A stretch of 12,391 nt of DNA from a bacterium (GTDB lineage Bacteria; UBA9089; CG2-30-40-21; SBAY01), in the NCBI GenBank assembly GCA_040757115.1, contig JBFLYA010000118.1, positions 1-12,391 of the forward strand, read 5' to 3'. The position numbers were made by a program, and so were the translations under genes. How positions within the stretch are numbered: the first letter of the stretch is position 1; the number at the start of each line of letters is the position of its first letter. The notes under the pieces were generated by a model. That model saw nothing but the letters and a program-made list of their open reading frames with translations. It did no database searches and had not been told where the DNA came from. Below are positions 1 through 12,391 of the stretch, piece by piece.

Positions 1-112
1 TTAGACTAATAAAAATAATCACACAGAGACACAAAGTCACAAAGGAATTGAATAAAACAATAAACCTTTGTGTTCTTTGTGGCTTTGTGTGAGAAAATAA
101 AAAGGAGATATT
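1..112 (+). repeat. Non-coding hairpin cassette, copy 1 (CACAGAG/CTTTGTG inverted repeat)
   Basis: The window opens inside an attC end (TTAGAC, the tail of a GTTAGAC core), so this is the start of a cassette. A left arm (about 20-46, CACAGAGACACAAAG type) and a right arm (about 66-93, CCTTTGTG...TTTGTGTGA type) are imperfect inverted repeats around an AT-rich loop of about 19 nt, so the transcript would fold into a long stem. No gene is visible. The same block recurs at 11931-12036 and 12249-12354, each time followed by the 213-bp attC-bearing unit. A degenerate relative may sit near 6230-6265. I see no function beyond being part of a repeated non-coding cassette. Confidence 0.7.
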
Positions 113-325
113 TTAGGGTCAAACCGTAAATGTGGAATGCACAATAATTCGGTGAGGCAGAGGAAAAGGAAAAGACAGCGAATCAAAGCTTTTGTCTAAC
201 CCTGCGTTGCAGTTGACGGCGGGGGACTGTGCCGTGGTCAGAGTTTTGTGGTCTCTCAAAGTTTTATCTTGCTATCAAACTTTTGTGGTAATCCTCCCCG
301 CAGCAGGTGAGCTCAATCGTTAGGC
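113..325 (+). repeat. 213-bp non-coding cassette unit, copy 1 (TTAGGG box + trailer + attC)
   Basis: This unit begins with TTAGGGTCAAACC, runs through a purine-rich stretch (GAGGCAGAGGAAAAGGAAAAGA) and ends in an attC site. Other copies are at 1126-1338, 2993-3205, 9148-9360, 9809-10021, 12037-12248 and (cut) 12355-12391. The complete copies are 213 bp except the one at 12037, which lacks one A. Between TT of the first core and G of the last it has the architecture of an ORF-less integron cassette of about 207 bp. Confidence 0.75.
194..325 (+). other. attC: attC-1 (A/B chimera)
   Basis: R'' is GTCTAAC (194-200) and R' is GTTAGGC (319-325); length 132 bp. The 5' half is the A type (GCAGTTGACGGCGGGG), but the 3' arm is the B type (CCCCGCAGCAGGTGAGC). 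The L-box part of the stem therefore pairs worse than in either pure family, and only the GCGGGG/CCCCGC block and the R boxes match well. It leads into the nucleotidyltransferase/HEPN cassette. Confidence 0.85.
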
Positions 326-348
326 AAAAACAACTTTGGAGAGTATCT

Positions 349-666
349 ATGATTTCTGAAAAAATAATTAAAAAAGCAATAGAACGATTGATAGAAGTAG
401 CAAATCCACAAAAGATATATCTATTTGGCTCTTATGCACGTGGTGATGCTCGAGAGCAATCTGATTTAGACCTTTTGGTCGTTGAACAAACGATAAAAAG
501 CCAACGAAAGGAAATGGTTTATCTCCATGATGCAATTCGTTCAATGTGTATTCCTGTAGACATTATACCTGTAAGCGAAGCTACTTTTAACGAATGGTCC
601 AATGTACCAGGTACTGTCATTCATAAAGCCAAAACTGAAGGACGATTATGCTATGAAAAATCGTAA
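349..666 (+). CDS. mntA: MNT-type nucleotidyltransferase antitoxin (MntA-like)
   Basis: A protein of 105 aa from ATG 349, preceded by GGAGAG at 338-343; a longer reading from GTG 307 lies inside attC and is unlikely. The nucleotidyltransferase signature GS-x10-DxD is present (GSYARGDAREQSDLDLLV, about residues 27-44), with the two Asp as metal ligands. Small MNT proteins are known partners of HEPN toxins, in characterised cases transferring AMP onto the toxin (type VII toxin-antitoxin). Its stop overlaps the HEPN start by 14 nt, implying translational coupling. It is the first gene of a cassette starting at attC-1. Function is inferred from motif and pairing. Confidence 0.85.
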   Translation: MISEKIIKKAIERLIEVANPQKIYLFGSYARGDAREQSDLDLLVVEQTIKSQRKEMVYLHDAIRSMCIPVDIIPVSEATFNEWSNVPGTVIHKAKTEGRLCYEKS

Positions 667-1048
667 ACTTGCAGAACGGTTTCTGAGTAAAGCAAATCAA
701 GATATGATTGTTATCGAGAAGTGGCGGCAAGACAAGGAGATTCCTGATGAGATTTTAGGCTTTCATGCTCAACAAGCGGCTGAGAAAATGCTTAAAGCGG
801 TTTTGGCCTATCAAGGGATCGAATTTCCATTTACTCATCGATTGGCTGACTTGATAGACTTAAGCAAAAAGCAAGGTATCGTTTTACCAGAGAGATTGGA
901 AGAGGTACGTTTTTTGACTCCTTTTGCTGTTAAGTTTCGTTATGACCTTTATTATGAAGAGGATAAAGAACCTATTGATTTTAAAGAAATATTCACCTTG
1001 CTTATCGAATTACGCAACTGGGTGAATACAATAATCTCTCAGGAGTGA
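653..1048 (+). CDS. hepT: HEPN-domain protein (HepT-like toxin partner)
   Basis: A protein of 131 aa; the start chosen is ATG 653, which overlaps the end of the nucleotidyltransferase gene, and an in-frame ATG at 602 would only add residues from inside that gene. It looks like an all-alpha HEPN protein of the PF05168 type: FHAQQAAEKMLKAVLAYQG in the second helix, FPFTHRLADL, then LTPFAVKFRYD. Partners in such pairs are often RNases using an RX4-6H motif. I do not find that motif here, so nuclease activity is uncertain and it could instead be a binding or regulatory HEPN. It is followed after 6 nt by a truncated attC. Confidence 0.8.
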   Translation: MKNRKLAERFLSKANQDMIVIEKWRQDKEIPDEILGFHAQQAAEKMLKAVLAYQGIEFPFTHRLADLIDLSKKQGIVLPERLEEVRFLTPFAVKFRYDLYYEEDKEPIDFKEIFTLLIELRNWVNTIISQE

Positions 1049-1054
1049 TAATTT

Positions 1055-1110
1055 GCCTAACGAATCGTTGCAGCGGACGGCGGGGGATTGTGCCGTGATT
1101 AAAAGTTTTG
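1055..1110 (+). other. attC: Truncated attC (5' half only)
   Basis: It starts with R'' GCCTAAC (1055-1061) and follows the family sequence through CGGACGGCGGGGG, TTGTGCCGTG and AAAGTTTTG. The 3' arm and R' box are missing, and the sequence runs via about 15 unrelated nt (ending AAGATA) into a 213-bp non-coding unit. It cannot fold as an attC alone. The MntA/HepT cassette could then only move together with the following unit. Confidence 0.75.
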
Positions 1111-1125
1111 AAACCGGGAAAGATA

Positions 1126-1338
1126 TTAGGGTCAAACCGTGAATGTGGAATGCACAATAATTCGGTGAGGCAGAGGAAAAGGAAAAGACAGCGAATCAGA
1201 GTTTTTGTCTAACCCTGCGTTGCAGTTGACGGCGGGGGACTGTGCCGTGGTCAGAGTTTTGTGGTCTCTCAAAGTTTTATCTTGCTATCAAACTTTTGTG
1301 GTAATTCTCCCCGCCGCACCTGAACTTTATCGTTAGAC
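1126..1338 (+). repeat. 213-bp non-coding cassette unit, copy 2
   Basis: A near-identical copy of the TTAGGG-to-attC unit, joined directly to the truncated attC behind the HEPN gene. There is no ORF with a ribosome binding site. Together with the truncated attC and the 5' region of the next cassette, this fills the gene-free stretch 1049-1423. Confidence 0.75.
1207..1338 (+). other. attC: attC-2 (A type)
   Basis: R'' GTCTAAC (1207-1213), R' GTTAGAC (1332-1338), 132 bp. The arms GTTGCAGTTGACGGCGGGG and CCCCGCCGCACCTGAAC pair along their length, apart from G-U wobble and two unpaired bases (G and A of the 5' arm), as expected for the folded single-stranded substrate of IntI. Confidence 0.9.
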
Positions 1339-1423
1339 ACTTGAGTTTTAAGATATTTCGGCTGTGCGATGTTATAAGGTTTGCTGATTAAAGGCAAATA
1401 TAATTTAAAAGGAGTATGTATAA

Positions 1424-1636
1424 ATGAAGATAAAAGAAAAAGCCATGAAGGAATTGAAGGCAATGACACCGTTAGAAATTATCACGATTTATGAGATAAT
1501 GCTTTCGTTAAAAATCAAAACAAAGAAGAAACTTCCAAATCATTCAAAAGCCTATATCAAAGTGAGAGAGGCATTAAGTAAATGCGACGGGTCGTTAAGC
1601 AATGACATACTTATGGAAAGAGAGGATAAAATTTGA
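1424..1636 (+). CDS. Small VapB-like antitoxin candidate
   Basis: A 70-aa, Lys-rich protein from ATG 1424, with AAAAGGAG about 7-8 nt upstream. I recognise no named DNA-binding fold. The antitoxin call rests on size, charge and position: it ends in ATTTGA, where its TGA overlaps the TTG start of the PIN-domain gene, a coupling typical of VapBC operons. The gene begins about 85 bp after attC-2, longer than in the other cassettes. Role as the toxin's neutralising partner is inference. Confidence 0.6.
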   Translation: MKIKEKAMKELKAMTPLEIITIYEIMLSLKIKTKKKLPNHSKAYIKVREALSKCDGSLSNDILMEREDKI

Positions 1637-2085
1637 AACTGTTCATTGATAGTTCCGCACTTGTTAAATTCTTTCATAAAGAAGAAGGCTCTCAGAGAGT
1701 TACGGAATTAATAGTTTCGGAAGACAATGAGATATGGATTTCCGAAATTGCCGGAGTTGAATTTCTCTCTGCGGTAACAAGAAGATTTAGGAATAAAGAA
1801 ATAGATGAGGAGAATTTGAATAATGCCATTTCGGGTTTTGAAGAACAGTTAAGCACTTTCAATGTAGAGCCTGTAGGACATGCGATAATTAAAGAAACTG
1901 AATCTTTAATCAAACAACATGGAAAGTCACAAGGACTTAGAACACTTGACGCACTACACCTCGGAACATTTAATCTGATTGCTGAAAAAGACTGGGTATT
2001 TGTAGCAGCAGACGAAACTCTCTGTAAAGCAGTTCACCAAATGGGATACAGTTTTATAAATCCTCTTGAAGATCAGAGACAATAA
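1633..2085 (+). CDS. vapC: PIN-domain toxin (VapC-like RNase)
   Basis: A 150-aa PIN-domain protein with the four acidic metal-binding positions: D6 (FIDSSALVKFF), E43 (EIAGVEFLSAV), D106 (LRTLDALHL) and D127 (VFVAADETL). Such toxins are Mg-dependent endoribonucleases acting on tRNA or rRNA. The start codon is TTG (1633), overlapping the antitoxin stop by 3 nt; I see no other good start before the conserved first strand. After the stop comes a diverged trailer (ATTAGGTTCAAACC at about 2115) and then attC-3. The target RNA cannot be told from the sequence. Confidence 0.88.
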   Translation: MKLFIDSSALVKFFHKEEGSQRVTELIVSEDNEIWISEIAGVEFLSAVTRRFRNKEIDEENLNNAISGFEEQLSTFNVEPVGHAIIKETESLIKQHGKSQGLRTLDALHLGTFNLIAEKDWVFVAADETLCKAVHQMGYSFINPLEDQRQ

Positions 2086-2193
2086 CAAGTTGAATACCAA
2101 GAGGAGGATAGATTAGGTTCAAACCTCGAAGATAGAATTTACAAAAAACCGAAGATTAAGAAAAGAAGAAAAAGACGGCGGAGCAAGTCTTTT

Positions 2194-2325
2194 ACCTAAC
2201 AAATCGTTGCAGCGGACGGCGGGGGACTGTGCCGTGGTCAGAGTTTTGTGGTCTCTCAAAGTTTTATCTTGCTATCAAACTTTTGTGGTAATCCTCCCCG
2301 CCGCACCTGAACTTTATCGTTAGCA
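2194..2325 (+). other. attC: attC-3 (A type)
   Basis: R'' ACCTAAC (2194-2200), R' GTTAGCA (2319-2325), 132 bp. The left arm reads AATCGTTGCAGCGGACGG rather than the CCCTGCGTTGCAGTTGACGG of the non-coding unit, so this appears to be the site belonging to the VapBC cassette. The gene-free stretch 2086-2356 consists of the trailer (a diverged version of the TTAGGG-box trailer) and this site. Confidence 0.9.
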
Positions 2326-2356
2326 TCAAACATTTTCAGAAGAGGTGAATTATACC

Positions 2357-2548
2357 ATGCGAAGAAAAGATTATATTCAACTTCAGAGAAAATACGGTGG
2401 TAATTTTATTGCCACTATGAATGACCAGATAGTTGCTGTAGCAAAAACTCAGAAAGAGTTAACCTATAAAATAACCGAAAAAAAATTAAAGAGAAAAGAT
2501 GTCATCTATGAATATATCGAACCGAAAGGAGCTATCTGTGTCTATTGA
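2357..2548 (+). CDS. DUF5678-like small protein
   Basis: A protein of 63 aa from ATG 2357, with AGAGGTG about 9 nt upstream; the GTG at 2345 is part of that ribosome binding site. The pattern DYIQLQRKYGGNFIAT, DQIVAVAKTQKEL, then IYEYIEPKGAICVY resembles the DUF5678 family, short proteins of unknown function often coded next to retropepsin-like proteases, as here. It overlaps the protease gene. The family match is from memory of the pattern and not certain. Confidence 0.65.
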   Translation: MRRKDYIQLQRKYGGNFIATMNDQIVAVAKTQKELTYKITEKKLKRKDVIYEYIEPKGAICVY

Positions 2549-2948
2549 ATTCCCGCTTAGAGAAAAAAGAACACATTTAGGAGTTATCCCTGACCCTAAA
2601 ATAGATATCCTGATATTGGAAAAATCTGGCTATGCTCCTTACAGATTTCTCCTCGATACAGGTGCTGACTGTACAATGATGCCTTCCTCATCAGCGGAAG
2701 ACTTAGGCATTGATTTAGAGCAGTGTCCTATTGATCGTTCTTATGGTATTGAAGGAGATGGTGTAAAAGTTTATCTTAGTCCGATAACAGTTAAAATCGG
2801 AAGTCATAACCTAACTATTAAATGCCTCTTCTCAGAGAAGGAAAATACTCCTTATTTACTGGGACGGATGGATATTTTCTCTCATTTTAATATCACCTTT
2901 GATAATGAACAGAAGAAACTAATTCTTACACATATTCCTACTGATTAG
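2538..2948 (+). CDS. Retropepsin-like (clan AA) aspartic protease
   Basis: A protein of 136 aa if it begins at GTG 2538, which has AAAGGAG 6 nt upstream and overlaps the preceding stop by 11 nt; ATG 2499 would give 149 aa but has no such site. The core is FLLDTGADCTMM, the DTG active-site loop of single-domain aspartic proteases that act as dimers, with a later hydrophobic LLGRMDIF motif typical of the family. No signal peptide or membrane segment, so probably cytosolic. With the DUF5678-like protein it makes a two-gene cassette. Substrate unknown; an antitoxin- or maturation-like pairing is only a guess. Confidence 0.82.
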   Translation: MSIEFPLREKRTHLGVIPDPKIDILILEKSGYAPYRFLLDTGADCTMMPSSSAEDLGIDLEQCPIDRSYGIEGDGVKVYLSPITVKIGSHNLTIKCLFSEKENTPYLLGRMDIFSHFNITFDNEQKKLILTHIPTD

Positions 2949-2967
2949 CCCTACTGTGGAGAAAGAT

Positions 2968-3001
2968 ATTATTAGTTAGGGTCAATTATTAGTTAGGGTC
3001 A
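2968..3001 (+). repeat. 17-bp tandem duplication of the TTAGGG box
   Basis: ATTATTAGTTAGGGTCA occurs twice in direct tandem (2968-2984, 2985-3001) where the protease cassette meets the next 213-bp non-coding unit. Each copy holds a GTTAGGG, identical to an attC R' core, so the duplication may reflect repeated recombination or slippage at a core site. Confidence 0.7.
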
Positions 3002-3205
3002 AACCGTGAATGTGGAATGCACAATAATTCGGTGAGGCAGAGGAAAAGGAAAAGACAGCGAATCAAAGCTTTTGTCTAACCCTGCGTTGCAGTTGACGGC
3101 GGGGGACTGTGCCGTGGTCAGAGTTTTGTGGTCTCTCAAAGTTTTATCTTGCTATCAAACTTTTGTGGTAATTCTCCCCGCCGCACCTGAACTTTATCGT
3201 TAGCA
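2993..3205 (+). repeat. 213-bp non-coding cassette unit, copy 3
   Basis: Same unit as at 113-325, complete, following the retropepsin gene with only a 17-bp tandem repeat between. It fills the gene-free stretch 2949-3251 together with the leader of the GH13 gene. It carries attC-4. Confidence 0.75.
3074..3205 (+). other. attC: attC-4 (A type), last attC of the left array
   Basis: R'' GTCTAAC (3074-3080), R' GTTAGCA (3199-3205), 132 bp, with well-paired A-type arms. The GH13 gene starts 46 bp after the core, the usual spacing of a cassette gene. No further complete attC is seen until 7836. Confidence 0.9.
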
Positions 3206-3251
3206 TATAATACAAGCATTGAATAACACGACATAAGGAGGAATGATTTAT

Positions 3252-6167
3252 ATGCCTAAAATTAGAATTCATTATAACAATGAGTATGCCTATTCTCAGC
3301 CAGAATTATATGTTTGGGCAGATAAGATGAAACCCATAAAACAGAAGCCGGATGGAAATGATTCCTTTGGACCTTATTTTGATTTTGATCTTATTGGTTT
3401 CCATGATAATCTCCATTTTAAGTTCAAAGATGGAGAAGTGTATGAACCAAATAGCGACAATCGTCTCCTAAAAATCGATAGCCCCAATAATATCTGGACA
3501 TTTGCTGGAAGTAATGGGGTATTCTATGAAGACCAGATAAAATTAGATATAACCACCCTCAAAATTCACCTGAGAACAGCTAATAAATATGTCAATAGTA
3601 AATTATATATTTGGTCCTTGGCTGGCAACAAAATAGGTGATATTGAAAAATCAGGCAATGATGATTTTGGTCCATATTGGGAAGTCCCATTAAAGACGGA
3701 TAAAGAACGGACTTCTATATGTTTTAAATTTCACAAAGATGATTTATGGGAACCTGACAGGGCTAATAAGTTATGGTTATGTGTTTATGGGAATGAGGTT
3801 TGGACAAAAAGTGAAACTAATCTGGTCATTAGTAAAAAACCTGAGATGCTCAACATCAAGGTAAAATTTAAAACTAAAAAACTATCCCCAATAATGCATA
3901 TCTGGCAGCAGGATGATTTTATTAAAGATATTCCATCCAGATCTAAAGATAAATTTGGGTTTATCTATACGGTGTCGCTATATACCGGTTTACCGTATAA
4001 TTTTATGTTTTATGAGAATGGGAACTGGGAGATGGAAAGTTGTATAAAGACATTTACCCCAGAAAAAGATAACAGCTATATCTGGGCATTTGATGGCGTC
4101 ACCCAGTTATTTAACCAAAAGCCATTAAAAAACAAGATACTTACGGTCTCTATGCAAAGAGAACCTAAGAGTCTATTGGATGATTCGACGAGGATGCATA
4201 TCTGGGCTGGGAATGCGATTAAAGAGGATATTGCTCCTCGTTATGTATCGACTAACGGTCGGCTTGTTTATAAATTGAAGGTCTATTCAGGACTACCCTA
4301 CAGAATGATGTTTCATAAAGGAGATAATTGGGAGAGAAGCAGTGAAAGAAGTGTTGTCTTAGAGAAAAGTAAAGCGGTCTGGGTTATTGAAAATAATCTT
4401 TCTATACTTAACTCACCGCCTCCTTATAACTTGTTCCAAAATCCTGACTTCTGGATAAAAAGACCCGGGGTATATAAAGAGAACGGGTTCTACCGATTTG
4501 TCCTACATGCCCCTCATGCTGGTCGGGTAAGAGTCATTGGTGAGTTTACAGACTGGGAGAAAAATGCCTATGATCTGAGACTTACCGAGGATAAACGCTA
4601 CTGGTGGGTATCAATTCCGGCTAATAAGATAAGGCATGGGCAGAAATACAAATATTTACTCAATGATGATTGGTATTCTCAGGATCCAGCGGCAAGTTGG
4701 GTTGAGAATTCGTCATATTCAGCCTGTTCCCAGATTCTTGTTTCTGATAATTATAAATGGAATGATAGTCAGTGGCGAACACCTGGTTTTGAATATCTAA
4801 TCATCTATCAATGTCATATCCGAAGATTTACTAATCGTAATGGGAATCAGCGGACATATTCTCAATTGATTGAAGAAATAAAGGAAAATGCCAAAAACAA
4901 TTACCTGAAAGACCTGGGGATTACCGTCATTGAGTTATTACCTATCCAGGAGTTTCCTATGGATAAATCATGGGGATACAATCCATCTTTCTTCTATGCC
5001 CCGGAGTCGGCCTATGGTAAGCCTGATGAATTAAAAGAATTTGTTGATATTTGCCATCAGAATGGGATAGCTGTTATCCTGGATGTCGTCTTTAATCATG
5101 TTGGAGGGGATTGTGCCTTGTGGAATTTAGCTCAGGAGACCTATTTTGATGGTGATACTAAATGGGGGGCAATGATTAATTACGATAATGAAATAACCCA
5201 GCAATTTTTTACCCAAAATGTCTTATATTTAAGAGAAGAATACCACATCGATGGATTCAGATTTGATTGCACGGATGCAATTATCCATTCTACGGCTAAG
5301 AATGATTTGATAAAGAAACCAGGCAGTGATGGTGGCGGGAATTTCTTGCATAAGATAAGAAAAGCTGTCAAAGGTGTGGATAATAATATCATCTTGATTG
5401 CGGAACAATTACCTAATGATTTCAGCTTGACTAATTACGGTGGTCCAATGGATACCCAATGGTTTGACGACTTCCATGATATCCTGAAAAAGTCACTTTG
5501 TGGTGTTCATAATATGGATGACCTGGCACAGGCGTTTACCCTGGGTTATAAGCGTTGTAATGAGTGGAATGATGTGGTCAATTATTCTGAGAGTCATGAT
5601 GAAGTAGGGAATACAGATGATAGAATCGCTCGCGTTGGGGCAGATTTTAAAGGATACAATATGTGCAAAATAGCGGCTACGGCTACATTAATGGCCAGAG
5701 GGATCCCCATGTTGTTTATGGGACAGGAAAGTGGTGAATCTAAGCAGTTTAAGGTAGATAACGATGATGTGCTTGACCTGGATGATTATGAAAAGGACAT
5801 AAACAAAACTAAGATTCGAGAATGGACAAAGGCAATGATTGCCTTGCGTAAAAATAATCCTTTTATCCAAAATGGGGCAGATTTGACCATAAAATATACC
5901 TATAACCAGGATAAAATTATTGCCTTTACCAGAGGTGGAGATAAATATTTTGTCGTTATGAACTTTGGAGGTTGGCATGGCTATCGTTATCTGGGTGAGA
6001 TGAATTTGCCTTATGGCGACTATAAAGAGATTTATAACTCTACCTGGCCATATTATGCCTTTGACTTTGAAGATGAACATACCAATGGTGGTTATAATGC
6101 TTGCTTAAATGCTAATCATAGTTTAAATATCCCTGATTATGGTGTAGTTATACTTGAAAAACGGTAA
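3252..6167 (+). CDS. Multidomain GH13 alpha-glucan-active enzyme (alpha-amylase/branching-enzyme superfamily)
   Basis: A protein of 971 aa from ATG 3252, 10 nt after AAGGAGG; ATG 3243 sits too close to that site. About residues 1-400 form four tandem modules of roughly 95 aa, each with LYVW/LYIW/MHIW, a central FGPYF/FGPYW/FGFIY/RLVYK block and a KDDLWEP/GDNWER-like end, resembling starch-binding pullulanase-associated modules. A CBM48-like beta domain follows (about 410-500), then the GH13 barrel with DVVFNHVG (D611), GFRFDCTD (nucleophile D672), ILIAEQ (acid/base E718) and SESHDE (D783), and a C-terminal beta domain. There is no signal peptide, so it probably acts on internal glycogen or maltodextrin. 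The subfamily (amylase, pullulanase-like, branching) is unresolved. It starts like a cassette gene behind attC-4 but has no recognisable attC after it. Confidence 0.9.
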   Translation: MPKIRIHYNNEYAYSQPELYVWADKMKPIKQKPDGNDSFGPYFDFDLIGFHDNLHFKFKDGEVYEPNSDNRLLKIDSPNNIWTFAGSNGVFYEDQIKLDITTLKIHLRTANKYVNSKLYIWSLAGNKIGDIEKSGNDDFGPYWEVPLKTDKERTSICFKFHKDDLWEPDRANKLWLCVYGNEVWTKSETNLVISKKPEMLNIKVKFKTKKLSPIMHIWQQDDFIKDIPSRSKDKFGFIYTVSLYTGLPYNFMFYENGNWEMESCIKTFTPEKDNSYIWAFDGVTQLFNQKPLKNKILTVSMQREPKSLLDDSTRMHIWAGNAIKEDIAPRYVSTNGRLVYKLKVYSGLPYRMMFHKGDNWERSSERSVVLEKSKAVWVIENNLSILNSPPPYNLFQNPDFWIKRPGVYKENGFYRFVLHAPHAGRVRVIGEFTDWEKNAYDLRLTEDKRYWWVSIPANKIRHGQKYKYLLNDDWYSQDPAASWVENSSYSACSQILVSDNYKWNDSQWRTPGFEYLIIYQCHIRRFTNRNGNQRTYSQLIEEIKENAKNNYLKDLGITVIELLPIQEFPMDKSWGYNPSFFYAPESAYGKPDELKEFVDICHQNGIAVILDVVFNHVGGDCALWNLAQETYFDGDTKWGAMINYDNEITQQFFTQNVLYLREEYHIDGFRFDCTDAIIHSTAKNDLIKKPGSDGGGNFLHKIRKAVKGVDNNIILIAEQLPNDFSLTNYGGPMDTQWFDDFHDILKKSLCGVHNMDDLAQAFTLGYKRCNEWNDVVNYSESHDEVGNTDDRIARVGADFKGYNMCKIAATATLMARGIPMLFMGQESGESKQFKVDNDDVLDLDDYEKDINKTKIREWTKAMIALRKNNPFIQNGADLTIKYTYNQDKIIAFTRGGDKYFVVMNFGGWHGYRYLGEMNLPYGDYKEIYNSTWPYYAFDFEDEHTNGGYNACLNANHSLNIPDYGVVILEKR

Positions 6168-6328
6168 CCATTCAGGATGTAATGAAGGGAAAAGGGGAAA
6201 TAGGGGGGAATAGGAAATTTAGCCACCTGGGCGATTAGACTAATTCATCGCAGAGACGCAAAGGAAAAATAAATGGAAAATAGGAAATGAAAAATGGGAA
6301 ATTTTAGTAATTCGCAAGACTCATTACC
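6168..6328. other. Junction region with possible cassette remnant
   Basis: About 160 bp without a gene, rich in GGGAAATAGG-type purine repeats. At 6230-6262 the text GGGCGATTAGACTAAT, then CGCAGAGACGCAAAGG, resembles the attC end plus hairpin cassette (TCGTTAGACTAAT, then CACAGAGACACAAAG) at 12240-12265. It may be the decayed end of the GH13 cassette's attC and a fragment of the hairpin cassette. The same region replaces the lost 3' end of the integrase gene. Confidence 0.4.
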
Positions 6329-6700
6329 TTTTTCATCGCAGTGGTGTCGTCGTATCTTACCACTGCGAGGATCGCTGGATATTCGGCTGGATGGAAAAAC
6401 ATATTGCCATCCCCATTCCTTAGAGGCATTAGGATATTTCCGTTCTAAGGCAAAAGGCAGATAGACCTCTCCCAACCCCTTTTGAAGATCCTCTTCGTGC
6501 AATATCTTAACTCGGCGTAAATGTTCTAACAATGCTGGTTTTAATGTTTCAGGCAGCATCGTTGAACGGTCTTTCCTCCCTTTTCCCTCACGCACAATGA
6601 CTTGATTTCGTTCAAAGTCAATATCTTTAACCCGCAAACGAATACATTCCATCAACCGTAGTCCACAGCCGTAAATAAGTTTTGCCATCAATCCATATAG

Positions 6701-6966
6701 CGGTTATTAACTGGAAGTTTACATAGGATAATACCCATAAATAAGGTATGAGAATAATCGTTCCGTTAGGAACATAATATTGGTAGAAATAGATAGACAA
6801 ATCAATCAGTTCCGTAGGAACGATATATTGGTAGAAAATTTATGGAAAGCCATTTACCGATATATTGTCCCTCTGGGACATTATTTGTATGATATTTATT
6901 TCTACCGATATGTTGTCCCTCTGGGACATTATTTGTATTTCTAAGTAAAGTTTTGAATAATAACTG
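6701..6966. mobile_element. 266-bp MITE-like element inserted in intI
   Basis: The ends are 22-bp imperfect inverted repeats (6701-6722, CGGTTATTAACTGGAAGTTTAC, and the complement of 6945-6966, CAGTTATTATTCAAAACTTTAC; 15 of 22 match). Flanks CCATATAG (6693-6700) and CCATAAG (6967-6973) look like a target duplication of about 7-8 bp with one change. Inside are four short palindromes in two orientations: GTTCCGTTAGGAAC (6760-6773), GTTCCGTAGGAAC (6809-6821) and GTCCCTCTGGGAC twice (6867-6879, 6915-6927), each linked to a TTGGTAGAAA or TTTCTACCGA tag. There is no transposase, so movement would need one in trans. Confidence 0.75.
6760..6927. repeat. Four REP-like palindromes inside the MITE-like element
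   Basis: Two left units (palindrome then ATTGGTAGAAA) face two right units (TTTCTACCGATAT or a close form, then palindrome), so the whole is a large inverted array. This could form strong secondary structure in either transcript. Confidence 0.65.
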
Positions 6967-7421
6967 CCATAAGTCCCTGACATAGCTGACAGAACACGAC
7001 TAACTTCTGCTTTTGTCAAAACTGTGGGTAACTTTTCAGGCTTCTTAGCTCGCTGGATATGCCCAAAATCTCCCAGTTCAATCTGAAGAATATGTTTATA
7101 AAGAAAGACGATAGCATTGAGCGCCTGATTTTGGGTGCTTGCCGAAACCTTCTGATTGGTTGCCAGGTAAGAAAGATACTGAGAGATTTCCTTTTCTCCC
7201 ATATATTTTGGATGCTTTTTGTTATGGAAGAGAACAAATCGTTTTATCCATTCAATATAACTTTGCTCAGTACGAATAGAATAGTGCTTTTTACGCATCA
7301 CTTCACTGGTCTGCTCAAGAAGATTCACCTCATTAGACCTCCTTTCAGCATTTTTCGGTTTCAATATTACATGCATTTTAACTATAAAACACTATTTATC
7401 AGCTAATTGCAAGAAAAAAAT

Positions 7422-7609
7422 TTATAATGCAGTAAAATAAAAACCGCTAATAGGCAGTATAATATCAGGATGTTATTTTTCAGTATTTTCTAATTTTGAT
7501 ATTAAAATTTTTCTTGACAGAATATTCTATTTATGCTACTCTATAAATAGCCTAACTTATAATGCAGTAATATAAAACTGCCAATAGGCAGTATAATCTA
7601 AGGTTAGAC
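7422..7609 (+). other. attI: Putative attI site with two direct repeats
   Basis: This lies between intI and the first right-hand cassette, where attI belongs. The insertion core is GTTAGAC (7603-7609). Two direct repeats of about 46 bp (7422-7467 and 7557-7602; shared TTATAATGCAGTAA and TAGGCAGTATAAT) flank about 90 bp and could be integrase accessory-binding sites, like DR1/DR2 of attI1. The second contains a perfect ACTGCC-AATA-GGCAGT palindrome (7577-7592). A GCCTAAC at 7550-7556 faces the core, so 7550-7609 also looks like a short, 60-bp attC-type palindrome. Confidence 0.6.
7514..7542 (+). promoter_or_regulatory. Candidate cassette promoter Pc
   Basis: TTGACA (7514-7519) with a 17-nt spacer to TACTCT (7537-7542), and TG one base before it as in an extended -10. 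It points into the right array from between the attI repeats. The -35 is perfect and the -10 is weak. GAATATTC (7520-7527) within the spacer is a perfect palindrome and could be an operator. Confidence 0.5.
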
Positions 7610-7961
7610 ATGCCAGACAGACAAGAAGGAGAAGGAGGAGAGTTATTCCTGTTGGAAGTTTCGGTGAGAATATTTGCTCCTTAGCGGACTATACCAGGCC
7701 TGCGAGATTGATGCTTTTCGGAAAGAGTTGCTTATCCCTCAGAAGCAACAGGGGGAGGCTAAGAGGGTCTACTGAAAAGTGATAGTTAGGTAAGATAGAG
7801 GAAGCAAGAAGAAAGAGACGGCAAAGTGCAGCTTTTTCTAACCATTCGCTGCACCTGACTGCGGGGGGCTGTGCCGTAATTAGAGTTTTGTGGTATCTTA
7901 AGCTTTTATCTTGTTTACAAAGTTTGGTGGTAATCCGCCCCGCAGCAGGTGAGCTCTATCG
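7604..7961 (+). repeat. First cassette of right array: non-coding, with a gene remnant (copy 1)
   Basis: This holds no intact gene from attI to the first attC, which accounts for most of the gene-free stretch 7329-8019. It shares about 230 bp with 11564-11806. In one frame both copies can be read as EYLLLSGLYQACEIDAFRK, then ELLIP, without a start, so a decayed gene end is possible, but later stops and frame differences (stop after ELLIP in copy 2) show that it is not coding now. A TTAGGT trailer (7785-7842) precedes attC-5. Confidence 0.55.
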
Positions 7962-7967
7962 TTAGCT
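7836..7967 (+). other. attC: attC-5 (B type)
   Basis: R'' TTCTAAC (7836-7842), R' GTTAGCT (7961-7967), 132 bp. The arms GCTGCACCTGACTGCGGGG and CCCCGCAGCAGGTGAGC pair perfectly but for an unpaired G and A, the same two positions as in the A family although the stem sequence differs. Confidence 0.9.
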
Positions 7968-8019
7968 TTCGAACCGAAACTCTAAACAATCGCGAAAGAA
8001 GCGAAGAATGGAGGAACCA

Positions 8020-8526
8020 ATGACTCAAAATGAAGAAAGAAAAGGAGTGCTTTCTCAAATCATTGTCGCCGTCGTTGTCACTTTACTAGTTGGCGGTACT
8101 GCTCCATGGTGGTGGGACATAATCGCTCCGGAAAAATCTCAGGAAAAACCTGATGGCATTCCAACTTGGGATGGGCAGATTCAGGAAAAACCTGATGGCA
8201 TTCCAACTCGGGATGGGCAGATTCAGGTTCGGTGTACTGCCAGTCCCCATTCAATTCCCGCTGGCGGACAGGTCGGAATCACGGTTCTGGCCTTCACAGA
8301 GCAGAGTTCTCCGGTCAGTAGCGCAAATGTTCGTATTGAAGCAGGCGGAGGATGGTTCTCCAGAAGCGGAACCACTATCGAGGTCGGACAGACGGACGCT
8401 GGTGGTGTATTCATGACCCAGTGGAGGTCTCCGAACCCAGCCGCGGGGGCATATGGAATGAACGTAACAGTGACCAAAGATGGTTTTACCGAGGGCAGGG
8501 ATGAGTGCAATATCCCCATACAATAG
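8020..8526 (+). CDS. Membrane-anchored protein with Ig-like domain
   Basis: A protein of 168 aa from ATG 8020, with GGAGG 5 nt upstream; ATG 8008 overlaps that site. One hydrophobic segment near the N-terminus (SQIIVAVVVTLLVGG, then APWWW) would anchor it with the rest outside the cytoplasm. A 14-aa unit (QEKPDGIPTWDGQI) is repeated in tandem, followed by an Ig-like/invasin-type beta domain (VRCTASPHSIPAGGQVGITV to VTKDGFTEG) with two Cys near its ends that may form a disulphide. Its base composition looks richer in G+C than the neighbouring cassettes, suggesting a different origin. Function unknown. Confidence 0.75.
   Translation: MTQNEERKGVLSQIIVAVVVTLLVGGTAPWWWDIIAPEKSQEKPDGIPTWDGQIQEKPDGIPTRDGQIQVRCTASPHSIPAGGQVGITVLAFTEQSSPVSSANVRIEAGGGWFSRSGTTIEVGQTDAGGVFMTQWRSPNPAAGAYGMNVTVTKDGFTEGRDECNIPIQ
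8140..8223 (+). repeat. 42-bp in-frame tandem duplication
   Basis: Two copies (8140-8181, 8182-8223) differ by one base (TGG/CGG, Trp/Arg). They lie in the linker between the membrane segment and the Ig-like domain, so copy number would change the spacer length without breaking the frame. Confidence 0.85.
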
Positions 8527-8546
8527 AAGAAGCTACATACGGGATC

Positions 8547-8678
8547 ATCTAACCATTCGCTGCACCTGACTGCGGGGGGCTGTGCCGTAATTAGAGTTTT
8601 GTGGTATCTCAAGCTTTTATCTTGTTTACAAAGTTTGGTGGTAATCCGCCCCGCAGCAGGTGAGCTTGATCGTTAGCA
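8547..8678 (+). other. attC: attC-6 (B type)
   Basis: R'' ATCTAAC (8547-8553), R' GTTAGCA (8672-8678), 132 bp, almost identical to attC-5. It follows the Ig-like protein gene by 20 bp without the TTAGGG-type trailer seen before many other sites. Confidence 0.9.
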
Positions 8679-8713
8679 CCAGATTGAACTAACCACCAGA
8701 AGGAGGAAGAGAC

Positions 8714-8995
8714 ATGGGAAAATGTCCGAAATGTGAAAATCTTATTACAACCGTCAACATTGAAGACGTTACTGTAAATCATCTTTTTCAGCCTGGTTGG
8801 AAAGGAATTTCATATCTTTGCCCATTTTGTAATTCTGTTCTGAGTGTACAGATTGATCCGATTGCGGTACGCACTGACATTTCAGACCATGTAGATCAGG
8901 CAGTTGCTCCTGTTTCGCAGGAGGTTGTTACCTTGCGTAGTCAAGTCACTCGGTTGGAGCAACTTTTAGCGCAGTTGTTGCAGCCACGGCGCTAG
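8714..8995 (+). CDS. Small zinc-ribbon protein with coiled coil
   Basis: A protein of 93 aa from ATG 8714, preceded by AAGGAGGAAGA. Two CxxC knuckles (CPKC at 4-7, CPFC at about 36-39) make a probable zinc ribbon. The C-terminal third, VSQEVVTLRSQVTRLEQLLAQ, has heptad-like Leu/Val spacing and suggests an oligomerising coiled coil. No catalytic motif is visible, and I do not recognise the family. Nucleic-acid or protein binding is possible. It is a single-gene cassette behind attC-6. Confidence 0.7.
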   Translation: MGKCPKCENLITTVNIEDVTVNHLFQPGWKGISYLCPFCNSVLSVQIDPIAVRTDISDHVDQAVAPVSQEVVTLRSQVTRLEQLLAQLLQPRR

Positions 8996-9073
8996 GGTTG
9001 CGTGGGTTCAGATGTCTGTCTGGTTCAGGAGGAAGTAAGTTAGGGTCGGAACCTGATTATTAGGAAATAGAGG

Positions 9074-9098
9074 AAATAGGGGGACATTTCCCCTATTT
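9074..9098 (+). terminator. Perfect hairpin in cassette trailer
   Basis: AAATAGGGG and CCCCTATTT form a 9-bp perfect stem with a 7-nt loop, after the zinc-ribbon gene. Only a weak T run follows, so Rho-independent termination is uncertain, but it could stabilise the 3' end of the message. Confidence 0.4.
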
Positions 9099-9102
9099 AT
9101 TG

Positions 9103-9139
9103 ACCTAACAAATTGTTGCAGCGGACGGCGGGGGCTGCG
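9103..9139 (+). other. attC: Truncated attC (5' quarter)
   Basis: R'' ACCTAAC (9103-9109), then AAATTGTTGCAGCGGACGG and the G run. The rest is replaced by CTGCGGGGATATT and a 213-bp non-coding unit. It is the second case of a gene cassette whose own attC is cut and followed by this unit. Confidence 0.7.
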
Positions 9140-9147
9140 GGGATATT

Positions 9148-9360
9148 TTAGGGGCAAACCGTGAATGTGGAATGCACAATAATTCGGTGAGGCAGAGGAA
9201 AAGGAAAAGACAGCGAATCAAAGCTTTTGTCTAACCCTGCGTTGCAGTTGACGGCGGGGGACTGTGCCGTGGTCAGAGTTTTGTGGTCTCTCAAAGTTTT
9301 ATCTTGCTATCAAACTTTTGTGGTAATTCTCCCCGCCGCACCTGAACTTTATCGTTAGCC
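9148..9360 (+). repeat. 213-bp non-coding cassette unit, copy 4
   Basis: A complete unit starting TTAGGGGCAAACC, joined to the truncated attC. With the trailer and hairpin before it, this fills the gene-free stretch 8996-9397. Confidence 0.75.
9229..9360 (+). other. attC: attC-7 (A type)
   Basis: R'' GTCTAAC (9229-9235), R' GTTAGCC (9354-9360), 132 bp, well-paired A-type arms. It leads into the second retropepsin-like gene. Confidence 0.9.
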
Positions 9361-9397
9361 ACTCAACAAATAAAACTTGATATAGGAGGGAGAAATT

Positions 9398-9787
9398 ATG
9401 GGACGAATTGTAGCACAAGTTGAAATATCGAATCCACAAGATGAGGGGAAGAATTTGACATGCAGTATATTTGTTGATACTGGTGCTGCTGGATTAATTC
9501 TTCCAATGGCATGGAAAGAACGCTTGGGGAAATTTGCAAGCAGTGAAGTTGTAGATCTTGTGTTAGCGAACAATGAAGTAGTTAAAGGTGAAGCGTGTGG
9601 ACCTGCAGGAATTCAAATAGAAGGATTCCGAAAAGTCTTTAACGAAGTAACCTTTATGGAGATGGAAAAAGCAGAAAATGGTGAATACGAACCCCTTTTA
9701 GGATATATAATTCTGGAACAAACACAAGTAGCCGTTGATATGCTTGGACATCGTCTTGTACCTGTGAAATATATCGATTGCAGATAA
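9398..9787 (+). CDS. Retropepsin-like (clan AA) aspartic protease
   Basis: A protein of 129 aa from ATG 9398, with AGGAGG 8 nt upstream. The active-site loop is FVDTGAAGLILP; a later EPLLGYIILEQTQVAVD matches the second conserved hydrophobic block of single-domain aspartic proteases. There is no signal or membrane segment. It is distinct from the protease at 2538-2948 (DTGAAG against DTGADC, and no DUF5678-like partner) and stands alone in its cassette. Substrate unknown. Confidence 0.82.
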   Translation: MGRIVAQVEISNPQDEGKNLTCSIFVDTGAAGLILPMAWKERLGKFASSEVVDLVLANNEVVKGEACGPAGIQIEGFRKVFNEVTFMEMEKAENGEYEPLLGYIILEQTQVAVDMLGHRLVPVKYIDCR

Positions 9788-9808
9788 ATTAAACAATAAG
9801 ATTTATCG

Positions 9809-10021
9809 TTAGGGTCAAACCGTGAATGTGGAATGCACAATAATTCGGTGAGGCAGAGGAAAAGGAAAAGACAGCGAATCAAAGCTTTTGTCTAACCCTG
9901 CGTTGCAGTTGACGGCGGGGGACTGTGCCGTGGTCAGAGTTTTGTGGTCTCTCAAAGTTTTATCTTGCTATCAAACTTTTGTGGTAATCCTCCCCGCCGC
10001 ACCTGAACTTTATCGTTAGGC
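9809..10021 (+). repeat. 213-bp non-coding cassette unit, copy 5
   Basis: A complete unit. Here it is preceded by TTTATCG, so the full GTTAGGG core (9808-9814) of a lost attC survives just 21 bp after the protease stop. This gives the exact left border expected for an integrated cassette. It fills 9788-10068 together with the next gene's leader. Confidence 0.8.
9890..10021 (+). other. attC: attC-8 (A type)
   Basis: R'' GTCTAAC (9890-9896), R' GTTAGGC (10015-10021), 132 bp, A-type arms. It leads into the DUF104/PIN pair. Confidence 0.9.
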
Positions 10022-10068
10022 AATGATGCTTTATAGTTTTATGGCATACTAATAAGTGGAGGAAGAAA

Positions 10069-10284
10069 ATGGTTAAAACATTAGAAGCAGTATTTGATGG
10101 CAAAGTATTGCATCCTGAGGGACCGATAGATTTACAGCCAAACATACGCGTCCGCATAACAATCCAGACCATCACTACACGGAAAACAAAAGCGCGTTCA
10201 TTCCTTTGTACTGCTCGATCACTTAATTTGGAAGGCCCTTCTGACTGGTCAACACGGATAGAAGAATACCTATATGGAAGGTAA
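10069..10284 (+). CDS. vapB: DUF104-like antitoxin (VapB family)
   Basis: A protein of 71 aa from ATG 10069, with GGAGGA 5 nt upstream. The start MVKTLEAVFDGKVLHPEGPIDL, then RVRITIQT, matches the DUF104/AF2212 type of antitoxin, a small beta-barrel protein that usually precedes a PIN-domain toxin. The toxin gene follows within 4 nt. The C-terminal part (SDWSTRIEEYLYGR) is the likely toxin-wrapping segment by analogy with other VapB proteins. Confidence 0.8.
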   Translation: MVKTLEAVFDGKVLHPEGPIDLQPNIRVRITIQTITTRKTKARSFLCTARSLNLEGPSDWSTRIEEYLYGR

Positions 10285-10288
10285 AGTG

Positions 10289-10711
10289 ATGCCAATGAGT
10301 AAAGTTTTTCTTGATACCGCATATGCTATTGCACTATCTTCGCCCAACGATGAGCAACACAAAAAAGCCGTGCAGATTGCAGAACAATTGGAAGCGGATG
10401 CAACTAAGTTGGTTACAACGCGAGCTGTCATATTGGAAATTGGAAATGCATTAGCTAAGTTACGGTATCGTAAAGCTGCAGTCGAATTATTGGACTCACT
10501 CGAACAAGACCCAAATGTTGAAATCATCCCAATTTCGGAAGAATTGTATAAGCGTGCATTCCAGTTTTATCGTGAGCGACCAGATAAGGAATGGGGAATT
10601 ACAGATTGTATATCTTTTGTTATTATGCAGGAGCAAAGGTTGACAGCGGCACTGACAACAGATGAACACTTCCAACAGGCTGGCTTTCAAGCACTCCTAA
10701 TGGATAATTAG
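10289..10711 (+). CDS. vapC: PIN-domain toxin (VapC-like RNase)
   Basis: A protein of 140 aa from ATG 10289, 7 nt after GGAAGG and 4 nt after the antitoxin stop; ATG 10274 and 10295 are alternatives. The PIN acidic set is complete: D9 (VFLDTAYAIAL), E50 (VILEIGNAL), D106 (GITDCISFVIM) and D125 (ALTTDEHF). The expected role is an Mg-dependent RNase held in check by the DUF104-like partner. Its stop codon TAG lies in ATTAGGGTCAAACC, the trailer box found behind other cassette genes. It differs clearly from the PIN protein at 1633. Confidence 0.88.
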   Translation: MPMSKVFLDTAYAIALSSPNDEQHKKAVQIAEQLEADATKLVTTRAVILEIGNALAKLRYRKAAVELLDSLEQDPNVEIIPISEELYKRAFQFYRERPDKEWGITDCISFVIMQEQRLTAALTTDEHFQQAGFQALLMDN

Positions 10712-10802
10712 GGTCAAACCTTGAATATTGAATTTACTTTTTGCATAACTTATTGATAACAAAAGAGATAAGAAAAGAAAAAGATGGCAAAGCATAGTTT
10801 TT

Positions 10803-10934
10803 ACCTAACAAATCGTTGCAGTTGACGGCGGGGGACTGTGCCGTGGTCAGAGTTTTGTGGTCTCTCAAAGCTTTATCTTACTATCAAACTTTTATGGTAA
10901 TCCTCCCCGCCGCACCTGAACTTTATCGTTAGGT
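10803..10934 (+). other. attC: attC-9 (A type)
   Basis: R'' ACCTAAC (10803-10809), R' GTTAGGT (10928-10934), 132 bp. The left flank is AATCG as in attC-3, with the GTTGACGG arm of the non-coding units. A diverged TTAGGG trailer (10708-10802) precedes it, so 10712-10963 holds trailer, attC and leader. Confidence 0.9.
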
Positions 10935-10962
10935 GGATTGAAGATAAGTGGATTGAAGATAA
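10933..10962 (+). repeat. 15-bp tandem repeat at cassette start
   Basis: GTGGATTGAAGATAA occurs twice in direct tandem between the attC-9 core and the acetyltransferase ATG. No strong ribosome binding site is seen, and the repeat may have displaced or replaced it. Confidence 0.8.
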
Positions 10963-10963
10963 C

Positions 10964-11512
10964 ATGATAAGTGGGTTTAAGGTTTCGCTTCGAGCAGCAA
11001 AGGAATCTGATCGTCGGCAGGTGTATAAATGGTTAGCTTGCTCTGACTTGACGCCATCAATGATGGGTCCTCCAGACTTTCCCGACCATCCGGTTCCAAC
11101 CTGGGAAGAGTTTTGTTCAGATTACAAAGCACATTACTTTGATGACTCTGCCATATATTCTGGCAGGTGCTTCATTATCACGGTTGCACATGAAGGCGTT
11201 GGTGTGGTAAGCTATAATCAGATTAACCAGAACAGAAGAGAAACCGAATTAGACATCTGGCTTCGCTCAGAATCTGATTGTGGAAAGGGATACGGCTCTG
11301 ATGCTTTGAAAACGCTATGTGATTATCTACATACCACTTACGGCATTGAAAGCTTTATCCTCAGGCCGTCTGCAAGAAACCAACGAGCTATTGCCGCATA
11401 TCAACGAGCGGGTTTTAAATTATTGTCTCTTTCGTCTGGTAAACAAAGAGCCGAATATGGTCCAGGAGACTACGTTGATACAGTGGTACTTTGCAAGCAT
11501 ATGTCCACCTAA
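10964..11512 (+). CDS. GNAT-family N-acetyltransferase
   Basis: A protein of 182 aa from ATG 10964. The acetyl-CoA pyrophosphate loop is CGKGYGSDAL (106-115, of the Q/RxxGxG/A type), and RPSARNQRAIAAYQRAGF (134-151) is the usual GNAT motif B. The N-terminus (VSLRAAKESDRRQVYKWL) resembles RimJ/RimL- and AAC(6')-like enzymes, so acetylation of a protein N-terminus, small amine or aminoglycoside is possible. The sequence does not decide between these. The stop TAA lies inside R'' of the next attC (ACCTAAC), so the gene fills its cassette completely. The ribosome binding site is weak. Confidence 0.85.
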   Translation: MISGFKVSLRAAKESDRRQVYKWLACSDLTPSMMGPPDFPDHPVPTWEEFCSDYKAHYFDDSAIYSGRCFIITVAHEGVGVVSYNQINQNRRETELDIWLRSESDCGKGYGSDALKTLCDYLHTTYGIESFILRPSARNQRAIAAYQRAGFKLLSLSSGKQRAEYGPGDYVDTVVLCKHMST

Positions 11513-11569
11513 CCAATCGCTGCACCTGACCACGGCTATCGCTCGGGCAGGTGAGCTCAATCGTTAGAC
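11507..11569 (+). other. attC: attC-10, short 63-bp form (B-type arms)
   Basis: R'' ACCTAAC (11507-11513), R' GTTAGAC (11563-11569). The arms GCTGCACCTGACC and GGGCAGGTGAGC pair with the same unpaired G and A, closed by a short loop. Only half the length of the other sites, like the 59-base elements of mobile integrons, so this cassette probably came from a different source. Confidence 0.88.
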
Positions 11570-11923
11570 AGGCCGGGGGCAGACAAGAAGAAGAAGAAGG
11601 AGGAGTTATTCCTGTTGGAAGTTTCAGGGAGAATATTTGCTCCTTAGTGGCCTATACCAGGCCTGCGAGATTGATGCTTTTCGCAAAGAGTTGCTTATCC
11701 CTTAAAAGCAACAGGGGGGAGTCTAAGAGGGCTTACTGAAAAGTGATAGTTAGGTAAGATAGAGGAAGCAAAAAGAAAGAGACGGCGAAGTGCAGCTTTT
11801 TCTAACCATTCGCTGCACCTGACTGCGGGGGGCTGTGCCGTTTTCAAAGTTTTGTGATTTATCAAGCTTTTATCTTGCTTACAAGGTTAGTGGTAATTCA
11901 CCCCGCAGCAGGTGAGCTCAATC
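11564..11923 (+). repeat. Non-coding cassette with gene remnant, copy 2
   Basis: It shares about 230 bp plus attC with the first right-hand cassette (7604-7961), with scattered substitutions and small indels. A 62-codon reading frame from 11551 starts inside attC, has no ribosome binding site and is not kept in the other copy, so I do not call it a gene. A TTAGGT trailer begins at 11750. Confidence 0.6.
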
Positions 11924-11930
11924 GTTAGGC
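11800..11930 (+). other. attC: attC-11 (B type)
   Basis: R'' TTCTAAC (11800-11806), R' GTTAGGC (11924-11930), 131 bp. B-type arms are intact; the central loop differs from attC-5 and attC-6 at many positions, so it has evolved separately for some time. Confidence 0.88.
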
Positions 11931-12036
11931 TAATAAAAATAATCACACAGAGACACAAAGTCACAAAGGAATTGAATAAAACAATAAACCTTTGTGTTCT
12001 TTGTGGCTTTGTGTGAGAAAATAAAAAGGAGATATT
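11931..12036 (+). repeat. Non-coding hairpin cassette, copy 2
   Basis: Same CACAGAG/CTTTGTG inverted repeat as at 1-112, directly behind attC-11 and followed by the non-coding unit at 12037. Together they form an ORF-less cassette of about 318 bp. The stretch 11513-12391 contains only attC sites and non-coding cassettes. Confidence 0.7.
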
Positions 12037-12248
12037 TTAGGGTCAACCGTGAATGTGGAATGCACAATAATTCGGTGAGGCAGAGGAAAAGGAAAAGACA
12101 GCGAATCAGAGCTTTTGTCTAACCCTGCGTTGCAGTTGACGGCGGGGGACTGTGCCGTGGTCAGAGTTTTGTGGTCTCTCAAAGTTTTATCTTGCTATCA
12201 AACTTTTGTGGTAATTCTTCCCGCCGCACCTGAACTTTATCGTTAGAC
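12037..12248 (+). repeat. Non-coding cassette unit, copy 6 (212 bp)
   Basis: Complete copy lacking one A in the TCAAACC box. It ends in attC-12. Confidence 0.75.
12117..12248 (+). other. attC: attC-12 (A type)
   Basis: R'' GTCTAAC (12117-12123), R' GTTAGAC (12242-12248), 132 bp, A-type arms. Confidence 0.9.
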
Positions 12249-12391
12249 TAATAAAAATAATCATACAGAGACACAAAGTCACAAAGGAATTGAATAAAAC
12301 AATAAACCTTTGTGTTCTTTGTGGCTTTGTGTGAGAAAATAAAAAGGAGATATTTTAGGGTCAAACCGTGAATGTGGAATGCACAATAATT
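12249..12391 (+). repeat. Hairpin cassette copy 3 and start of non-coding unit copy 7, cut by window end
   Basis: A tandem repeat of the preceding cassette: hairpin block to about 12354, then TTAGGG at 12355-12360 and the first bases of the unit. It is near-identical to 1-149 of the window, differing for example at CATACAGAG/CACACAGAG and GTGAATG/GTAAATG. Confidence 0.7.

Follow-up and report, generated by a model that had tools for sequence, protein, structure and literature searches.

The stretch of DNA studied here (the window; 12,391 nucleotides, contig C118 of a 4.3 Mb draft genome in 462 contigs) is very probably a head that has lost its local integrase, within a large chromosomal integron of multiple loci. 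The head consists of an integrase gene read from the minus strand (intI, about 7376-6331), then an attI region and an attC array, and both breaks in the gene could be mapped at base level by comparison with uninterrupted paralogues and a same-genus genome. Given the insertion in intI and the missing HxxR, LGH and Tyr, a functional integrase is not encoded at this locus, which is an inactivated integron head and not a complete integron. Coordinates are collected in Table 1.

Table 1. Features of the window and of the short-type intI genes elsewhere in the genome
Feature	Position	Strand	Description
Left cassette array	1-3205	+	3' of intI; four attC sites: 195-325, 1208-1338, 2195-2325, 3075-3205
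Alpha-amylase/pullulanase-like ORF	3243-6167	+	974 aa; directly downstream of attC (cassette-like position); convergent with intI
Dispersed repeat 2	6223-6331		Cut short towards intI; CCACCTGGGCGATTAG at its left end; intI junction at ~6331
intI middle fragment	6331-6697	-	Codons ~120-242; GLRL box, GKG, IntI patch; stops short of HxxR/LGH/Tyr
MITE-like repeat 1	6698-6969		Inserted in intI; flanked by a duplicated TA (6696-6697, 6970-6971); contains ~48-bp palindromic units
intI N-terminal fragment	6970-7376	-	Codons 1-121 (7328-6966) from GTG 7328; upstream ATG 7376
attI/promoter region	7414-7606		95-96% identical to the C30 and C116 regions
Right cassette array	7604-12391	+	Eight attC sites: 7837-7967, 8548-8678, 9230-9360, 9891-10021, 10804-10934, 11508-11569 (short), 11801-11930, 12118-12248
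Short-type intI	C63		Repeat 1 inserted at codon ~163
Short-type intI	C30		Codons 125-318 only
Short-type intI	C114		Internal TGA; match stops after codon 207
Short-type intI	C324		Codons 94-234 deleted, with frame change
Short-type intI	C116		Codons 1-74

Two breaks in the integrase gene

An earlier, sequence-only reading of this DNA had described an integrase gene at 6329-7328 that was inactivated twice, by an insertion and by loss of its catalytic C-terminus, and the remnant agrees with both the coordinates and the description. TIGR02249 (integron integrase) is the best family for the two fragments (4.6e-42 and 9.4e-54), each of which is partial and so scores under the whole-protein cut-off, and their Pfam matches are to Phage_int_SAM_4 and Phage_integrase. 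The IntI-specific patch that marks an integron platform, which the same reading took to be intact, is indeed present. The last ~75 codons, which would carry HxxR, LGH and Tyr, are gone as had been claimed: a search with the C-terminal 80 residues found no match in any of the six frames of the window (E up to 10), and thus no missing portion encoded nearby in another frame, a finding which that reading had said would overturn it. Either break should have been sufficient on its own, the insertion because the reading frame ends early and the truncation because HxxR, LGH and the catalytic Tyr are lost with it.

The first break is made by an element of 272 bp (repeat 1, counting its terminal TAGCG/TGCCA). 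That an element splits the gene, as had been supposed, is borne out by its dispersal in the genome, by its inverted ends and by the TA duplication seen on comparison with the uninterrupted gene of a relative, G010. The ends read TAGCGGTTATTA and TAATAACTGC(T/C)A, and the terminal inverted repeats TAGCGGTTATTA...TAATAACTGCTA, the latter end being TGCCA in the window version. A second insertion of repeat 1 lies at a different codon (~163) of a paralogous intI on C63, where comparison with the copy on C30 again reveals a duplicated TA target. At least 40 places in the genome carry the 5' part of repeat 1, a lower bound since 40 candidates were scored, and several are 97-98% identical over the whole query. 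Measured between the inner ends on which the search was based, complete copies are 167, 214, 262 or 385-440 bp long, the first three lengths rising in steps of about 48 bp. Palindromic units (GTTCC..GGAAC and GTCCC..GGGAC) occur in the window copy at 6756-6938 with a spacing of 48 bp. Many copies are also present in the same-genus genome G001; in five more distant genomes the matches were mostly to the internal palindromic part, and the sixth distant genome searched (G041) gave zero matches.

IS630/Tc1-like MITEs have terminal inverted repeats, a TA target duplication and tens of copies. Repeat 1 has all of these in common with them, its sequence signature is typical of the group and it is MITE-like in this sense; the varying number of its internal ~48-bp palindromic units sets it apart. 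DDE_3 transposases are encoded in the genome, and the ends of repeat 1 were not matched at the three IS630-type transposase loci of this genome that were examined. The first break results from the insertion of a TA-targeting, MITE-like repeat into intI.

The second break, at ~6331, lies at the margin of another dispersed repeat (repeat 2), and the other repeat 2 matches listed end at this same point, with none crossing into intI. Full copies of repeat 2 continue as ACCTTTCAGTTATAC, intact intI at the position of the break reads CCACTTTCATCGCAG in G001, and the window junction reads ACCTTTTTCATCGCAG, in which CTTTCA is a microhomology common to both and is accompanied by two extra T. We infer that the catalytic C-terminus was probably removed by a microhomology (illegitimate) deletion beside repeat 2, and the same deletion may have joined intI to the upstream cassette array that ends in the amylase gene. 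On C30, intI lacks its N-terminus as far as GCACAGGTGG, a sequence similar to an end of the repeat 2 kind.

Both breaks fall at high-copy repeats and the genome is a fragmented draft, so one may ask whether the assembly has brought unrelated sequences together at such repeats while the real intI is whole. We consider an assembly artefact of this sort very improbable, given that repeat 1 has exact ends and a TA duplication both here and in the second intI, as for real insertions. The window copy of repeat 2, moreover, reaches at most 93% identity with any other copy listed, with a longest exact run of 45 nt among the few copies compared, and none of the matches listed elsewhere in the genome crosses the intI junction.

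The death of the window intI looks recent, because its surviving codons are open and conserved and a matching C-terminus is found in a same-genus genome. The fragments contain zero further stops or frameshifts. Their dN/dS is 0.04-0.13 against relatives, and 0.20 against the short G001 piece, but most of this divergence predates the breaks and dN/dS therefore shows only slight decay since death. An intI of this type is represented in G001 by codons 193-318, with 149 bp that are 97% identical to the window at the DNA level, in a locus syntenic with C30 (90% over 5.4 kb). The comparison with related genomes that the earlier reading recommended has therefore supplied a near-identical C-terminal half (G001) as well as an uninterrupted relative (G010).

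Cassettes and their arrangement

Eleven of the attC sites in the window are 130-131 bp long and one is short; all lie in a single orientation and have R''/R' boxes. The first cassette of the right array starts at a predicted G^TTAGAC junction at 7603, which agrees with the G^TTRRRY consensus. Genes in the left array encode nucleotidyltransferase/HEPN, PIN and aspartyl-protease-like proteins, and acetyltransferase proteins are also found among the cassette genes. An Rfam search of the window returned zero RNA families.

A profile built from the window attC sites gave 122 matches, of which 105 are nearly full-length, and 32 of the 34 contigs scanned carry at least one. On C93 (L181), attC sites occur in both orientations and face one another (+ up to 9455, - from 11337). 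The 318-bp window cassette at 11930-12247 recurs with the same boundaries on C39, C93, C298 and C49, its copies being 96-99.5% identical outside attC. Judged from the sequences, this sharing fits integrase-mediated spread, with the integrase and the date left unspecified by it, and it could predate the integrase deaths.

The cassettes of the left array point at intI from its 3' side and are followed by the amylase gene. A deletion at ~6331 explains why this gene abuts intI, and it leaves unexplained the presence of arrays on both sides of heads; C63 likewise has a single attC on the 3' side of its intI, in matching orientation. We also considered the amylase gene as an old chromosomal neighbour, an idea which is unsupported since the ORF had zero matches in 20 other genomes searched.

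Integrases elsewhere in the genome

The genome has six copies of the short-type intI; all are broken, each in a different way. The search for an intact gene of matching type in the same genome, which the sequence-only reading had advised, thus had a divided outcome. An intact short-type intI was not found elsewhere in the 462-contig draft, in which the C63, C114, C116 and C324 copies are located at contig ends, so that an intact, collapsed copy could be missing; a divergent integrase of 460 aa with all motifs present, encoded on C39 (L005:1240-2622), is the sole intact IntI found. This protein scores 372.5 bits against TIGR02249 (cut-off 265), its best PDB match is IntI4 (2a3v, E 2.3e-70), its catalytic residues are present in the alignment and its dN/dS against orthologues from the same order is 0.16. 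The tree places the short types of this genome and of G001 next to each other, in two sister groups. The long type falls elsewhere, in a supported clade that includes genomes of the same order and family. The C39 gene is accompanied by an attI-like junction, a short first attC and then attC sites of the same family as those of the window, and its attI differs from the short-type attI.

Several further features of these loci can be recorded. The C39 IntI has an N-terminal extension of ~130 aa with four predicted helices (6-18, 23-42, 51-62 and 67-86), similar in their order to the four helices of the core-binding domain downstream of it (130-149, 153-169, 180-193 and 198-215); a tandem core-binding domain is possible, on a structure model of low confidence (mean pLDDT 67.7, pTM 0.44). 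A group II intron domain lies on the 3' side of intI on C39 (L016:4030-4106; Rfam RF00029, 56.9 bits), and C63 (L011:6752-15768) carries 5S, 23S and 16S rRNA genes. A Nitrospinae MAG (G041, the genome of L018; contigs C136, C317, C115 and others) likewise contains one short IntI that is intact, one long one and numerous partial matches. C136 and C317 share an internal deletion (codons 127 to 271), and their DNA is 83% identical.

The C39 IntI is an intact candidate to act in trans on the window array, and the window cassettes may last have been moved by it or by short-type copies that have recently died. The sequence-only reading had proposed either a recent death or an integrase supplied elsewhere. 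We find evidence for both halves, which are mutually compatible: the first agrees with the lack of further lesions, the low dN/dS and the G001 C-terminal half, and the second with an intact, divergent integrase beside same-family attC sites, whose action in trans is put forward as a candidate.

It is a real possibility, though less than probable, that the whole system around this head is dead, with the cassettes frozen since the short-type deaths and the C39 IntI serving only its own array or none. The loss of all six short-type copies and the dissimilarity of the C39 attI would be in keeping with this, as would the state of G001, which has 66 attC-pattern matches and as its only IntI match a short-type fragment at a contig end. 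Such a system does not, however, sit easily with a C39 IntI that is intact, conserved and adjoined by same-family attC, nor with a window cassette that is common to C39 at 98.9% identity. The genome may contain a dispersed superintegron, with about 120 attC sites and seven intI loci. All six short-type integrases would have been disabled independently, and the divergent long integrase would be the sole driver of cassette movement, working in trans on the arrays of the dead heads; this strikes us as somewhat doubtful.

The cause of the repeated breakage might be selection removing extra integrases, rather than drift in redundant genes. The six lesions are all different, and intI genes were hit twice by the same MITE, more often than a naive random expectation would give (P about 0.0005-0.0016), but insertion tolerance in redundant genes accounts for this excess equally well. 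A study from 2011 (PMC3108266), which reported 43-46% as inactivated, linked inactivation to loss of LexA control and so lends some weight to an adaptive shutdown, which we nevertheless think unlikely.

Relation to known integrons

Taken as one head of a multi-locus integron with its local integrase lost, the window belongs to a genome that shows by itself several aspects of integron decay. Routes of integrase death are represented by MITE insertion and repeat-adjacent deletion, and near-identical cassettes are found both in dead-head arrays and beside an intact integrase. It is also a natural system for testing whether many heads can be served by a single integrase.

Nemergut et al. (2008; PMC2426708) reported that about a third of intI genes are pseudogenes (with insertions, deletions or stops), some of them arising from intragenomic duplication, that more than one intI occurs in 20% of integron bacteria and that the IntI of clade 15 is about 120 aa longer than usual. 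Inactivated intI, duplication-derived pseudogenes, several intI per genome and a long IntI are features which the present genome shares with these pseudo-integrons. It differs in having six broken short-type copies and one intact long IntI in a single genome, and in that the lesions are assigned at base level to repeat insertion and repeat-adjacent deletion. In the inactivated integrons and CALINs of Xanthomonas (PMC12444791), truncated intI genes are accompanied by retained cassette arrays, as in the window, and according to that study a functional IntI can mobilise CALINs in trans. There, intI is located downstream of ilvD in nearly all genomes, whereas here one genome has seven intI loci, of which one is intact and divergent. 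Integrase pseudogenes, multiple intI per genome and long IntI have already been published, and the window is a well-resolved and detailed new case.
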